This document shows, one piece after another, positions 2,544 to 23,604 of a DNA stretch of 64,000 nucleotides (position 1 is its first letter; each line of letters starts with the position of its first letter). The position numbers and the translations under genes are program-made. The notes beneath the pieces are model-generated. The model saw nothing but the letters and a program-made list of their open reading frames with translations, was not told the origin of the DNA and did no database searches. Source of the stretch: Gemmatimonadetes bacterium 2013_60CM_65_52 (GTDB lineage Bacteria; Gemmatimonadota; Gemmatimonadetes; Gemmatimonadales; Gemmatimonadaceae); assembly GCA_002215645.1 (NCBI GenBank), contig NGFI01000008.1, positions 124,001 through 188,000 of the forward strand, in the 5' to 3' direction.

Positions 2544-3305
2544 ATGAGCGACGAAATGGGCGGTGGCAGTGTGCGTGCGGGGGATGGAGAAGCCCCCGCG
2601 CCCGAGAAACCGGCGTCGGTGTGGGAAGACTTCATCGACATCTTCTACGCGCCGTCCGCGGTATTCGCGCGGCGCGCGCGCGCGGGCTTCGGCATTCCGA
2701 TGCTCGTCGTGACCGTATTGATCGGCGTGATTTTCCTCGCGAGCTTCGGCGCCATGCAACCGGTGCTGGACGCGGAGTTCACGCGCTCGATGACGCAGGC
2801 GATGAAGAACAACCCGAACTTCACGCCGGAAATGGCGCAGAAGGCGCGCGGCATCGGCGAATCCTTCACGAAGATCGGCGCATTCGTGTTCGTGCCCGTG
2901 GGAATCTTTCTCACGGGTCTCGTTCTGTGGGGGCTGGGCAAGCTCGTGGACGCGACCGCGACGCTCGGTCAGGCGTTGATGGTCGCGTCCTATTCGTTCG
3001 TGCCCAGGGTGGCGGAATCGGTGCTCAACGCGCTCCAGACACTCGTCCTGGATCCGTCATCGTTGAACGGGCGGTTGCGCCTGTCCCTCGGCGTCGGCCG
3101 ATTCCTCGATCCGGATACGACGTCGCCGCTCGTGCTCGCGATCGTCGGACGATTGGACGTGTTCACGATCTGGGTGACCGTGCTCCTCGTGATCGGGCTG
3201 TCGGTGACGGGGAAGATTCCGCGCAACAAGGCGGCGCTCATCGGTGTTCCGATGTGGCTCGCCGGCGGTCTCGTGGCCATCCTTGGCGCGCTCAGAAACG
3301 GCTGA
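2544..3305 (+). CDS. Yip1-domain integral membrane protein
   Basis: Protein of 253 residues with a cytoplasmic N terminus rich in Gly, Ala and Pro, followed by the Yip1-like entry segment WEDFIDIFYAPSAVFARRA. About five hydrophobic segments follow: residues ~50-70, ~112-132, ~140-160, ~195-225 and ~230-250. Bacterial Yip1 proteins have no defined reaction and are sometimes linked to membrane or secretion genes. The ATG at 2544 has no strong ribosome site; a second in-frame Met lies four codons on. The stop is followed closely by the repeat island at 3333. Confidence 0.75.
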   Translation: MSDEMGGGSVRAGDGEAPAPEKPASVWEDFIDIFYAPSAVFARRARAGFGIPMLVVTVLIGVIFLASFGAMQPVLDAEFTRSMTQAMKNNPNFTPEMAQKARGIGESFTKIGAFVFVPVGIFLTGLVLWGLGKLVDATATLGQALMVASYSFVPRVAESVLNALQTLVLDPSSLNGRLRLSLGVGRFLDPDTTSPLVLAIVGRLDVFTIWVTVLLVIGLSVTGKIPRNKAALIGVPMWLAGGLVAILGALRNG

Positions 3306-3332
3306 GCCGGTAGAGAAGGCGAGAACTGCCGA

Positions 3333-3428
3333 GAAAACCACAACAACAGAAAACCACAACAACAGAAAACCACAACAACAGAGAATCACAACAACAGAGA
3401 ATCACAACAACAGAGAATCACAACAACA
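3333..3428. repeat. Six tandem 16-bp units (A/C-rich)
   Basis: Three copies of GAAAACCACAACAACA (3333-3380) are followed without a gap by three copies of GAGAATCACAACAACA (3381-3428). Copies within each triplet are identical. The strand is almost free of T and strongly A-rich, unlike the GC-rich surroundings. The array lies 27 bp after the Yip1-like gene stop and runs through an A-rich linker into the hairpin at 3446. The unspaced units exclude a CRISPR array. Confidence 0.95.
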
Positions 3429-3445
3429 AAAAAACAAAATGAACG

Positions 3446-3517
3446 AGCCACAGAGGGCACAGAGGCACAGAGAACTACATAACCGTAGTTCTCTGTGCCT
3501 CTGTGCCCTCTGTGGCT
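3446..3517. repeat. Perfect 33-bp inverted repeat, 6-nt loop (CACAGAG family)
   Basis: Bases 3446-3478 and 3485-3517 are exact reverse complements with loop ATAACC. The arms are built from CACAGAG-type short repeats. A diverged relative sits at 23511-23604. Between the Yip1-like gene and the convergent small gene it could act as a bidirectional terminator, but the length and perfection of the stem go beyond what termination needs, so it is better described as a dispersed palindromic element. Confidence 0.92.
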
Positions 3518-3520
3518 AAT

Positions 3521-3590
3521 TGCCGTTGCCGTAGTTGCGAATTGCCCTTGCCGTCGTAGCTGTGCTTTTGCGCCGTTGCCGTAGTTGGGA
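3521..3590. repeat. Degenerate repeat of a GCCGTTGCCGTAGTTG motif
   Basis: The 16-mer GCCGTTGCCGTAGTTG occurs at 3522-3537 and again at 3572-3587, with a diverged copy (TTGCCCTTGCCGTCGTAG) between them. It completes the repeat island that fills the gene-free stretch 3306-3637. I see no coding potential in this interval. Confidence 0.6.
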
Positions 3591-3637
3591 GTCGCTCTCG
3601 CTGTACGCAAATGTGCCGGACGCGCAGCCACCGCGCC

Positions 3638-3841
3638 TCACTCCGGCGGAAGGACCCGTTCGACGACCGGAACCGGAGGGCACGTGCCGCGATGCACGAT
3701 CCGCTGCACATGCAGGCGGACGTCGGCCTCCTCGAACGACTCGATGCGCCGACCGCAGCGATGACACTTCGGAAAAAGCGCGAAGGTGTCGCGTGCGATC
3801 TGCTCGAGGATGGGATCGTCGATGCGGCTCGACAGGGGCAT
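3638..3841 (-). CDS. Small CxxC-containing protein, hypothetical
   Basis: Possible protein of 67 residues. A single CxxC (KCHRCGRRI) is followed by an acidic/basic helix and a third cysteine in HRGTCPPVP, a layout that could bind zinc. I do not recognise the family. The ATG at 3841 has no ribosome site; an in-frame TTG at 3889 would add 16 hydrophobic residues and bring the gene within 17 nt of the upstream pqqD-like stop. Position and strand make it a likely partner of that gene. Confidence 0.45.
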   Translation of the reverse strand: MPLSSRIDDPILEQIARDTFALFPKCHRCGRRIESFEEADVRLHVQRIVHRGTCPPVPVVERVLPPE

Positions 3842-3906
3842 GGCGGGGGCGCGAAAAAGGATCGTTAGAAAGACGAGCGAGCCGCCCAATCAGGCACGGA
3901 TTGCCC

Positions 3907-8363: not shown

Positions 8364-10690
8364 TGACCATCTCCGTACGCCGACTCGTTGCCCTTGTGGC
8401 CGTCGCTCTCACGGCCGTGGGATGCGGCTCCGATTCTTCGACCGGAGCCAACAAGCCAGGTCCGGCCACTCGCCTCGAGCTGCTGACGTCGCCGTCTGCC
8501 ACGGCCGCCGCGGCGTCGTCTGCCGGATCGTTCACCGTCAAGGTGTCGGATTCGAAGGGCGTTCCTGTACCCGGCGTGACGGTGTCCTTCACGGCCACGG
8601 GCGCGGTGACGGCCAGTCCGGCCTCCGTGGTGACGGACGCGAACGGACAGGCGACAGCGCAGATCACGTCGGGCACCATTGCCGGAAGCGCATCCGTGTC
8701 CGCCAGCGTCACCGGCATTCCGGTCGTGGTCAGTGCCACCGTGACGGTCATTGCCGGCGCGGCGACGAAGATCACGGTGACCCCCAAGACGCTGCGATTC
8801 GCCAATGTCGGCGACACGGCACGCATCTCGGCGTCCGCGCTCGATCAGTTCGGAAACGCCGCCGCGGCGAACGCCATTACCTTCACGGTCGTCGATCCAT
8901 CTCTGGTGAGCGTGGACCAAGCTGGCCTCGTGAGAGTGCTGCGACTCGGCGGAACGACCTTCGTCATCGCGACCTCCGGCCCCAAGGCCGATACCACGGT
9001 CGTCAACGTTCTCGCCGCCGGCATGTCCATCTGCACCGGACTCGCCACGGCGTCGCAGATGAAAGTTGGTGACGTCCAGATCTTTTCGGGCTCGCAGTAC
9101 GCGTGCCTCTCCGGCAGCACGGCAGGCGCGGAATACACGCTCCTCGCCTTCAACGGCTCCACGGATCAGGTGAACTCGCTGAGCGCCTCGATTCTAGGGC
9201 AGGGGCTTGCCGCTGCGCCGAGTCCGTACAAGGCGCCCATCCCGGGCCCGATGCTCATGCGCTCGTCGCTCGGCACGGCTGGCGCCGTTCCGCCGGAACC
9301 TGATGAACGGTTCCACACGCAATTGCTCCAGCGTGCGAACGACGAGCTCAGTGGCCGCATCGCTCGCACGCGGGATGCACGCCGCGCAGCGATCTCGAGA
9401 TCGACCTTCGGCGCGGCCAGCGCGACGCAGGCCGCGGTCGGCGTGATCCCTGCCACCGTCCAGGTCGGCGACCTGATCACGATGAACGTGAGCGCCGCCA
9501 TCTGCACCAACCCCGTGTACCACGCCATGCGCGTGACCGCGGTCGGCTCCAAGTCGATCGTCCTCGCGGACACGTTGAATCCGACGCCGGGCTTCAGTGC
9601 CACAGACTATCTGCGCTTTGCCGCGAACTTCGACACACTCGTCTACGCGATGGACGTCGCCGCCTTCGGTGCGCCGAGCGACTTCGATCAGAACGGCCGC
9701 GTCGGGATTCTCTTTACGCGCACGGTCAACGAGCTCGTGAACGCCAGCTCGGGATACTTCGTCGGCGGATTCTTCAATCCGCGCGACCTGTTTCCGAAAA
9801 AGGGCGCGACGGCTGCTGATGACTGCCCCGGCAGCAACGAAGGCGAGATGTTCTACATGGTGGTGCCCGCACCAGCGCCAGGCATCAACGGCGTCACGCA
9901 TACCACCGGATTCGTGGACAGCCTCACGACGGGCGTTCTGGCGCACGAGTTCCAGCATCTCATCAACGCCGGCCGCCGCATGTACGTGAACAGCGCGGCG
10001 CAGGACTTCGAGGAAGTGTGGCTCAACGAGGGGCTGAGTCACATGGCCGAGGAGCTGTTGTATTACCGGCAGAGCGGATTCACGCCGCGCTCGAACCTGA
10101 ACGACTCGACCATCCGGTTGGTGAATCCGTCGGTGTACCCGTACTTCAAGAACGACGCAGCTTCGAACTTCTCGCGGCTCCTCGCGTACCTGCGCGATCC
10201 GGCGAACAATTCGCCTTTCGCGCCCAACGATGATTTGGCGACGCGCGGCGCCACGTGGTCCTTCTTGCGGTATCTCGCCGACCGGCTGGGACCCACGGAC
10301 GGCACCATCTGGCAGAAGTTCGACAACGCGACCGTCACCGGGCTGGCCAACATCACGTCGGTGATCGGCCAGGATCCGATGCCATTCTTCCGCGATTGGG
10401 CCATTGCGAACTACATGGACGACGATGGCGTGAGTGTCCTGGCGCAATACACCCATCCGAGCTGGAACTTCAGAAACATCTATACGACGACGTTCCTGAA
10501 CATTCCCACGTATCCGCTCAAGGTCGCGCTGATGAGCGACAACATCAAAGCCGATGTCCAGGTGCGCGGCGGCTCGGCGAGCTACCTGCGGCTTGCGGCG
10601 TCGGCGTCGAAGGATGTGCTCCTGACGTTCACCTCTGGCGGTGGTGCGCCGAGTGCGCCGCTGCAGTTCATCGCGGTAAGAACAAAGTAG
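8363..10690 (+). CDS. M30-like zinc metalloprotease lipoprotein with Ig-like N terminus (paralogue B)
   Basis: About 775 residues, starting at ATG 8363 in the TGATG overlap with paralogue A. The signal peptide ends with a lipobox cysteine (AVGCGSDS). Residues ~35-140 look like a bacterial Ig-like (Big-1/invasin) domain, with a second beta domain to ~220. The peptidase domain has HEFQH at 528-532 and WLNEGLSHMAEELL downstream. A Ca-site-like segment DFDQNGRVGILFTR parallels paralogue A. The extra N-terminal domains are the main difference between the two copies. The TAG stop lies inside the inverted repeat at 10685. Confidence 0.82.
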   Translation: MTISVRRLVALVAVALTAVGCGSDSSTGANKPGPATRLELLTSPSATAAAASSAGSFTVKVSDSKGVPVPGVTVSFTATGAVTASPASVVTDANGQATAQITSGTIAGSASVSASVTGIPVVVSATVTVIAGAATKITVTPKTLRFANVGDTARISASALDQFGNAAAANAITFTVVDPSLVSVDQAGLVRVLRLGGTTFVIATSGPKADTTVVNVLAAGMSICTGLATASQMKVGDVQIFSGSQYACLSGSTAGAEYTLLAFNGSTDQVNSLSASILGQGLAAAPSPYKAPIPGPMLMRSSLGTAGAVPPEPDERFHTQLLQRANDELSGRIARTRDARRAAISRSTFGAASATQAAVGVIPATVQVGDLITMNVSAAICTNPVYHAMRVTAVGSKSIVLADTLNPTPGFSATDYLRFAANFDTLVYAMDVAAFGAPSDFDQNGRVGILFTRTVNELVNASSGYFVGGFFNPRDLFPKKGATAADDCPGSNEGEMFYMVVPAPAPGINGVTHTTGFVDSLTTGVLAHEFQHLINAGRRMYVNSAAQDFEEVWLNEGLSHMAEELLYYRQSGFTPRSNLNDSTIRLVNPSVYPYFKNDAASNFSRLLAYLRDPANNSPFAPNDDLATRGATWSFLRYLADRLGPTDGTIWQKFDNATVTGLANITSVIGQDPMPFFRDWAIANYMDDDGVSVLAQYTHPSWNFRNIYTTTFLNIPTYPLKVALMSDNIKADVQVRGGSASYLRLAASASKDVLLTFTSGGGAPSAPLQFIAVRTK

Positions 10691-10741
10691 GACAGTAGGA
10701 CCGTAGGACGGCAACCTCAAAACGACGTTGCCGTCCTACTT
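10685..10741. repeat. GTAGGAC-type inverted repeat at the end of paralogue B
   Basis: Three spaced GTAGGAC units precede a perfect 13-bp inverted repeat (10703-10715 with 10727-10739). The element begins at the stop codon of the upstream gene, so it contributes the codon's bases. It probably acts as a terminator or mRNA-end hairpin; a related element follows the TonB receptor gene at 13631. Confidence 0.8.
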
Positions 10742-10852
10742 GGTTTTGTGCGTCTGGCAGCCAAATGCGCCGGCATGTACCCTAAGAGGTAACGGTCCCA
10801 CCGACCGCCTCTCCGCCGCACCCGCGGATCCCACCCACTGGAGCGCAGACGC

Positions 10853-13633: not shown

Positions 13634-13703
13634 GCCAGTAGGACAGTAGGACAGTAACGGCGTTGGCCTGTCCTACCGGCCAACCGTCCTACTGTCCTAC
13701 TTT
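13631..13703. repeat. Nested GTAGGAC inverted repeat after the TonB receptor gene
   Basis: Outer arms AGTAGGACAGTAGGAC (13637-13652) and its exact reverse complement (13686-13701) enclose inner arms GTTGGCC (13662-13668) and GGCCAAC (13678-13684). The element starts at the receptor stop codon and ends 8 bp before the GTG of the AACS gene, so a terminator plus start-region role is possible. It is the same family as 10685-10741. Confidence 0.85.
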
Positions 13704-23510: not shown

Positions 23511-23604
23511 ACCACAGAGAGCACAGAGAGCACAGAGAGCACAAGTACCTTCGTTTCTCCCCTTTGTGTTTCGAGTCCCTCTGTGTGCTCGTGCTCTCTG
23601 TGGT
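23511..23604. repeat. CACAGAG-family inverted repeat with three 9-bp tandem units
   Basis: Three copies of CACAGAGAG (23513-23539) form the left arm; the perfect outer 14-bp arms are 23511-23524 and 23591-23604, with partial pairing inside. It directly follows the E1 gene stop (minus strand), so it would be at that mRNA's 3' end. It is a diverged relative of the hairpin at 3446-3517. Confidence 0.8.

Follow-up and report, generated by a model that had tools for sequence, protein, structure and literature searches.

A dispersed CACAGAG palindrome in an island between two convergent genes of a Gemmatimonadota genome, and its putative role at transcript ends

The 3' ends of the convergent genes yip1 and orf83 are separated by 332 bp in which three different repeat types abut, which raises the question of what this island is, how it came to lie there and whether it serves either gene. 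The island was analysed within a window of 64,000 nucleotides (the whole stretch of DNA considered here), in the remainder of the 4.2-Mb genome, in relatives of the same genus and phylum, and in collections of bacterial, archaeal and viral sequences.

Layout of the island and its absence from relatives

The upstream gene, yip1 (2544-3305, plus strand), encodes a 253-amino-acid membrane protein with a Yip1 domain (Pfam PF04893, E 1.3e-17) and orthologues in the genus, while the downstream gene, orf83 (3638-3889, minus strand), encodes a conserved small protein without a Pfam match that is found in the same place, with 65-79% identity, in seven same-genus relatives. The initial annotation had placed three abutting repeat types at 3333-3590. 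All three were recovered there, the third being short and imperfect, but relatives without the island put the limits of the foreign stretch wider, at about 3314-3636. The six 16-bp units form two triplets on the plus strand (3332-3427), namely three copies of AGAAAACCACAACAAC (3332-3379; starts at 3332, 3348 and 3364) and three of AGAGAATCACAACAAC (3380-3427; starts at 3380, 3396 and 3412), two substitutions apart and, as originally described, with no variation inside either triplet. An A-rich spacer (3428-3445, plus strand), which on the minus strand is a T-rich segment just past the hairpin, leads into the left arm of the hairpin (3446-3478), with CACAGAG at 3449-3455, 3458-3464 and 3466-3472. 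A 6-nt loop (3479-3484) separates it from the right arm (3485-3517), with CTCTGTG at 3491-3497, 3499-3505 and 3508-3514. The 33-nt arms are 100% complementary, in agreement with the initial annotation, and form the longest perfect inverted repeat reported for the window; the calculated RNA fold of 3446-3517 reached -74.7 kcal/mol (z = -13.9 against dinucleotide shuffles). The third repeat (3522-3604, plus strand) is a pair of segments, 3522-3554 and 3572-3604, that are 82% alike over 33 nt. The A-richness noted for this strand does set it apart from its surroundings, the window having 65% G+C.

Same-genus relatives share the order ybjQ, yip1, orf83 (on the opposite strand) and then a gene of the GGDEF-EAL type. 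Four of them have yip1-orf83 gaps of about 13, 20, 5 and 24 bp; the gap is longer in three more (about 58, 107 and 173 bp). In one relative (G005) the alignment runs straight from GAGCCGGTAG into the end of orf83, and CACAGAG was found at this locus in none of the same-genus relatives compared. At a second locus carrying the element, L096, a syntenic relative (G003) is likewise without it. Because same-genus gaps are mostly 5-25 bp, against 332 bp here, the island corresponds to an insertion of about 320 bp, with limits that are approximate since the proteins of the relatives are only about 60% identical. These alignments show that the island is absent from this site in the relatives.

The hairpin family and the tandem arrays beside it

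The proposal that the island is a dispersed, recently copied element held for the hairpin only. The hairpin query gave 38 matches in the genome and a pattern of two adjacent heptamers gave 152, against one for the reversed control; reading of the DNA around the matches yielded a catalogue of at least 43 hairpin clusters. Polarity was uniform, all catalogued clusters opening with CACAGAG and closing with CTCTGTG. In a typical cluster each arm carries three heptamers set 1-2 nt apart, with a period of 8-9 bp; the outer edge is AAC/GTT, and the length of the centre between the arms varies greatly. Some arrays are expanded, such as those with ten (L072) or five (L082) copies of CTCTGTG. A second copy in the window (23513-23602) also lies between convergent genes. 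For the 16-mer, the genome held no second site with up to three mismatches allowed, and for the third repeat no other clear site; with a single genomic site each and no relatives found, neither is the dispersed element that had been suggested.

Two members of the family, at about 623.6 and 635.5 kb of contig C2, have flanks common to both copies, inverted and ~12 kb apart, which suggests that a larger segment was duplicated. Many copies in the same-genus relative G002 are CTCTGTG-first, for example at C24:4976-5052, C39:24188-24274 and C53:5992-6069. The window also contains two members of another tandem-heptamer palindrome family (10690-10742 and 13637-13701), built on the word GTAGGAC with a period of 8 and a 1-nt spacer; adjacent pairs of this word occur 26 times in the genome and never for the reversed control, and the word opens with a REP-like GTAG, yet the genome is without a Y1_Tnp transposase.

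The pairing test covered 32 hairpins from this genome and 28 from other records, and in both samples the heptamers were constant and the spacers between them variable. Outer spacers were pairing-identical in 9 of 28 cases in the same genome (4.6 expected, p = 0.017) and in 8 of 27 in other records (3.2 expected, p = 0.006), and inner spacers were near chance (5 of 23, 3.1 expected). Because the spacers pair barely above chance, it is the heptamer word, and not the pairing, that is conserved in the family. Compensatory pairing of the spacers was rejected in view of this weak excess, for which copying of one arm from the other may account, so that any constraint on the RNA stem is weak. The active maintenance read from the perfect stem therefore finds no support across the family, most copies of which are mismatched at the inter-heptamer spacers. 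Perfect stems are the exception, found in a few copies, and the one at the island is compatible with recent formation or with homogenisation of its arms.

Within 120 bp of hairpins, 15 tandem arrays of period 11 bp or longer were found, against 3.3 expected from the same DNA elsewhere, or 12 when three doubtful arrays were dropped. Arrays comparable to the 16-mer, with units of 16-24 bp, flank several other hairpin copies: one copy (L108) has eight 19-bp units, each ending in AACCACA, and another (L079) is flanked on the left by 4.6 copies of TCACCACAGAGCAGCAT and on the right by a 24-bp unit repeated 3.2 times. Written in the phase AACCACAACAACAGAA, the 16-mer also contains AACCACA. The 16-mer and the third repeat are local tandem arrays adjoining the hairpin. 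We infer that replication slippage within sequence bordering the element gives rise to such arrays, the border being a putative origin of this particular 16-mer.

Distribution of the array over phyla, archaea and phages

The exact 24-base half-site AACCACAGAGNNCACAGAGNNCACAGAG was present in at least 116 stretches of the GTDB collection (one genome per species), where about 0.002 matches would be expected by chance with equal base use assumed. Among the matches listed, classified by record title, were Bacteroidota, Pseudomonadota, Planctomycetota, Acidobacteriota, Verrucomicrobiota, Chloroflexota and Chlamydiota, together with Cyanobacteria, Nitrospirota, Cloacimonadota, Omnitrophota, Neomarinimicrobiota, Desulfobacterota and Methanosarcinales archaea. 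The listed matches thus span a dozen or more phyla, many of the records being metagenome-assembled genomes in which contigs may be misbinned; they include isolates of Labilibaculum, Cuspidothrix, Alcanivorax and Chitiniphilus, and plasmid records of Bacteroides and Pseudoalteromonas also carry the half-site. By form, the matches listed comprised 68 single half-sites, 29 CACAGAG-first pairs and nine CTCTGTG-first pairs. Within the phylum itself, the three-heptamer form was detected in 10 of 298 genomes, with 1 to 45 matches each and none for the reversed control. Copies are also present on plasmid records of Gemmatirosa kalamazoonensis, a cultured relative.

The array also occurs in viral contigs, among the matches listed from a separate viral collection that includes proviruses and possibly some host DNA and in which the reversed pattern occurred 16 times overall. 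One and the same gap between two genes was compared in 80 related phage contigs. The array follows the stop codon immediately in 42 of them, with no flanking direct repeat; the others contain short unrelated sequence, another kind of repetitive spacer or hardly anything. Such variation marks the gap as a place of frequent replacement. Comparison of phage families with and without the array in the same gap makes the question of its spread directly testable.

Several side observations were made on these records. In related phages (contigs L371-L450) the content of one gap, about 20-70 bp before a shared gene, is swapped between a CACAGAG array, a TTCCGCC-type repeat, other short sequence and nothing. 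A sister word, CACRAAG, shows the same three-unit layout in viral contigs (L467-L544 among the matches listed), often as close inverted pairs. In Bacteroides finegoldii (L370, 2970-3034) a CACAGAT/ACACGGATT-type array directly adjoins a CACAGAG array, and small GC-rich palindromes lie within inter-heptamer spacers in Pseudoalteromonas and in a viral contig (L369, 2100-2140; L247, 4633-4760).

Putative role, mode of spread and comparison with known systems

The 40 classified copies of the family lie at 20 convergent, 17 tandem and three divergent junctions, against a background of 67 convergent (19%), 215 tandem and 66 divergent junctions. The convergent excess is significant (Fisher p = 4.5e-5; p = 0.005 when compared only with spacers of at least 100 bp), although neutral insertion merely tolerated at such places predicts the same enrichment. 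Across the family the 30-nt left flank has 34-37% A and the right flank 34-36% T, compared with about 17% in the window. Moreover, GC-rich perfect hairpins occupy the corresponding position in two relatives, at the yip1-orf83 locus in G002 and at L096 in G003. As in a terminator, a stable GC-containing hairpin stands at the gene 3' end; a scan for consensus intrinsic terminators returned no site at the island hairpin because the T-tract starts more than 2 nt from the stem, the T-rich stretch on the minus strand beginning a few nucleotides past it.

On these sequence data our confidence is about evenly divided that the island is an inserted, non-autonomous, non-coding dispersed repeat whose hairpin is a putative two-way transcript end for yip1 and orf83. 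The CACAGAG palindrome is multicopy and intergenic and lies between the 3' ends of the two genes; transcription from either side would produce a very stable hairpin that could act as a terminator or as a protector of 3' ends for both. Such a role would account for the persistence of copies at convergent junctions and for their removal from promoter regions. The convergent excess, the A/T asymmetry of the flanks and the GC-rich hairpins in the slots of two relatives all fit this reading. Counting against it, the family in other phyla often takes the form of single half-sites, which fold into no such hairpin, and for this reason its spread cannot have begun because of a terminator role. A promoter or 5'-UTR role was rejected, given the lack of orientation bias in other genomes (35 versus 29 tandem copies) and the few divergent copies here. 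If the transcript-end role holds, a mobile repeat would have been taken into service as a transcript end at a position that a GC-rich hairpin occupies in relatives.

Tolerated neutral insertion is a close rival to the transcript-end role. A neutral or selfish intergenic repeat, with purifying selection leaving harmless copies between 3' ends, is a distinct possibility that we rate somewhat below an even chance: exact three-heptamer matches range from 0 to about 45 per genome within one genus, with only the 10 phylum members mentioned above carrying any, spacers almost free to mispair speak for weak selection on a perfect stem, and the same intergenic slot of the phages holds the array, other sequence or no spacer at all. 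The A/T flank asymmetry and the GC-rich slot hairpins of two relatives are nevertheless better accounted for by functional replacement. In another reading the array (as CACAGAGNNCACAGAGNNCACAGAG) would be a set of putative protein-binding sites on double-stranded DNA, for instance nucleoid sites or phage-repressor operators, with the hairpin incidental; the patchy copy number speaks against a core regulatory role of this kind. Conservation of the heptamers on both arms but not of the spacers, the regular 8-9-bp period, the single half-sites common outside the genus and the frequent location of phage-contig arrays in short intergenic spacers all agree with binding; no partner protein was identified, nor any recurrent neighbour family in bacterial and archaeal loci, and we regard this explanation as unlikely.

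As to how copies spread, a trans-acting machinery with sequence specificity for the heptamer array, other than a RAYT/IS200-type transposase, could be responsible. It is doubtful, though conceivable, that heptamer arrays are recognition sites or products of one machinery common to bacteria, archaea and phages, such as a sequence-specific recombinase or a polymerase adding short templated repeats, which would place CACAGAG, CACRAAG and GTAGGAC between genes under one set of rules. No protein family recurred beside the array across the 116 listed bacterial and archaeal loci of other genomes, and a partner gene encoded in cis was rejected, the largest neighbour clusters being related phages or apparently spurious frames. 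Movement of REP/REPIN elements by a REP-associated tyrosine transposase (RAYT) would also give multicopy intergenic palindromes in inverted pairs without target-site duplication, but we consider such an origin very improbable and largely refuted: Y1_Tnp is absent from this genome and from the motif-rich relatives G002, G024 and G047, and its presence over 60 relatives is unlinked to the motif (4 of 13 versus 17 of 47, p = 1). Nor does a 5' GTAG/GTGG tetranucleotide stand beside the palindrome, the edge being AAC|CACAGAG in nearly all copies, and the CACAGAG sequence is nearly constant across phyla, whereas REPs are lineage-specific and have a conserved 5' tetranucleotide of the GTAG/GTGG/GGAG type beside the palindrome (PMC3686654).

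The family is intergenic, multicopy, palindromic and non-coding, with terminal inverted repeats, features it shares with REP/REPIN elements and MITEs. Rfam gave nothing at gathering score anywhere in the window, and sub-threshold matches to animal and plant microRNA hairpins were taken as chance, so that membership of a known RNA family was rejected. Open-access papers searched by sequence string and by phrase yielded no published description of the CACAGAG array, which is apparently undescribed in print. Like REP/REPIN/BIME elements, the hairpins are short intergenic palindromes in inverted arrangement with tens of copies per genome, but they differ in having no tetranucleotide tag, a stem of tandem heptamers, no RAYT and a word present in many phyla and in archaea. 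With MITEs they have in common a non-autonomous nature, inverted repeats around a variable centre and an insertion visible against relatives. They differ from these in that no parent transposon was found among the proteins neighbouring 116 loci of other genomes, single half-sites are common in other genomes and no target-site duplication was detected. Direct repeats of 4-8 bp were no more frequent at the edges than in shuffled pairs, and the flanks have diverged from those of relatives so far that a short duplication could escape notice. The AAC/GTT edge is suggestive of an integron attC-like site, but the RYYYAAC/GTTRRRY consensus was not matched on inspection and this candidate was rejected. 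Bidirectional intrinsic terminators resemble the island in their stable hairpin, A-rich 5' and T-rich 3' flanks and position at gene 3' ends; unlike them, it has a sequence common to unrelated loci and phyla, a T-tract set off the stem and a negative consensus scan. The hairpin family is best classed as a dispersed intergenic palindrome, a known kind, outside REP, MITEs and the Rfam families. Mycobacteriophage stoperators and start-associated sequences are, like CACAGAG, short conserved words in small intergenic gaps of phages, but they have other sequences, occur as one word per site with no tandem array and inverted partner, and belong to particular phage clusters. Known dispersed bacterial palindromes are each restricted to a lineage and depend on a transposase of their own; an exact 24-base array in distant phyla, archaea and phages, at very uneven copy number and with no transposase in sight, would point instead to an unknown cross-domain mobilising system or to a widespread binding protein that keeps the word.
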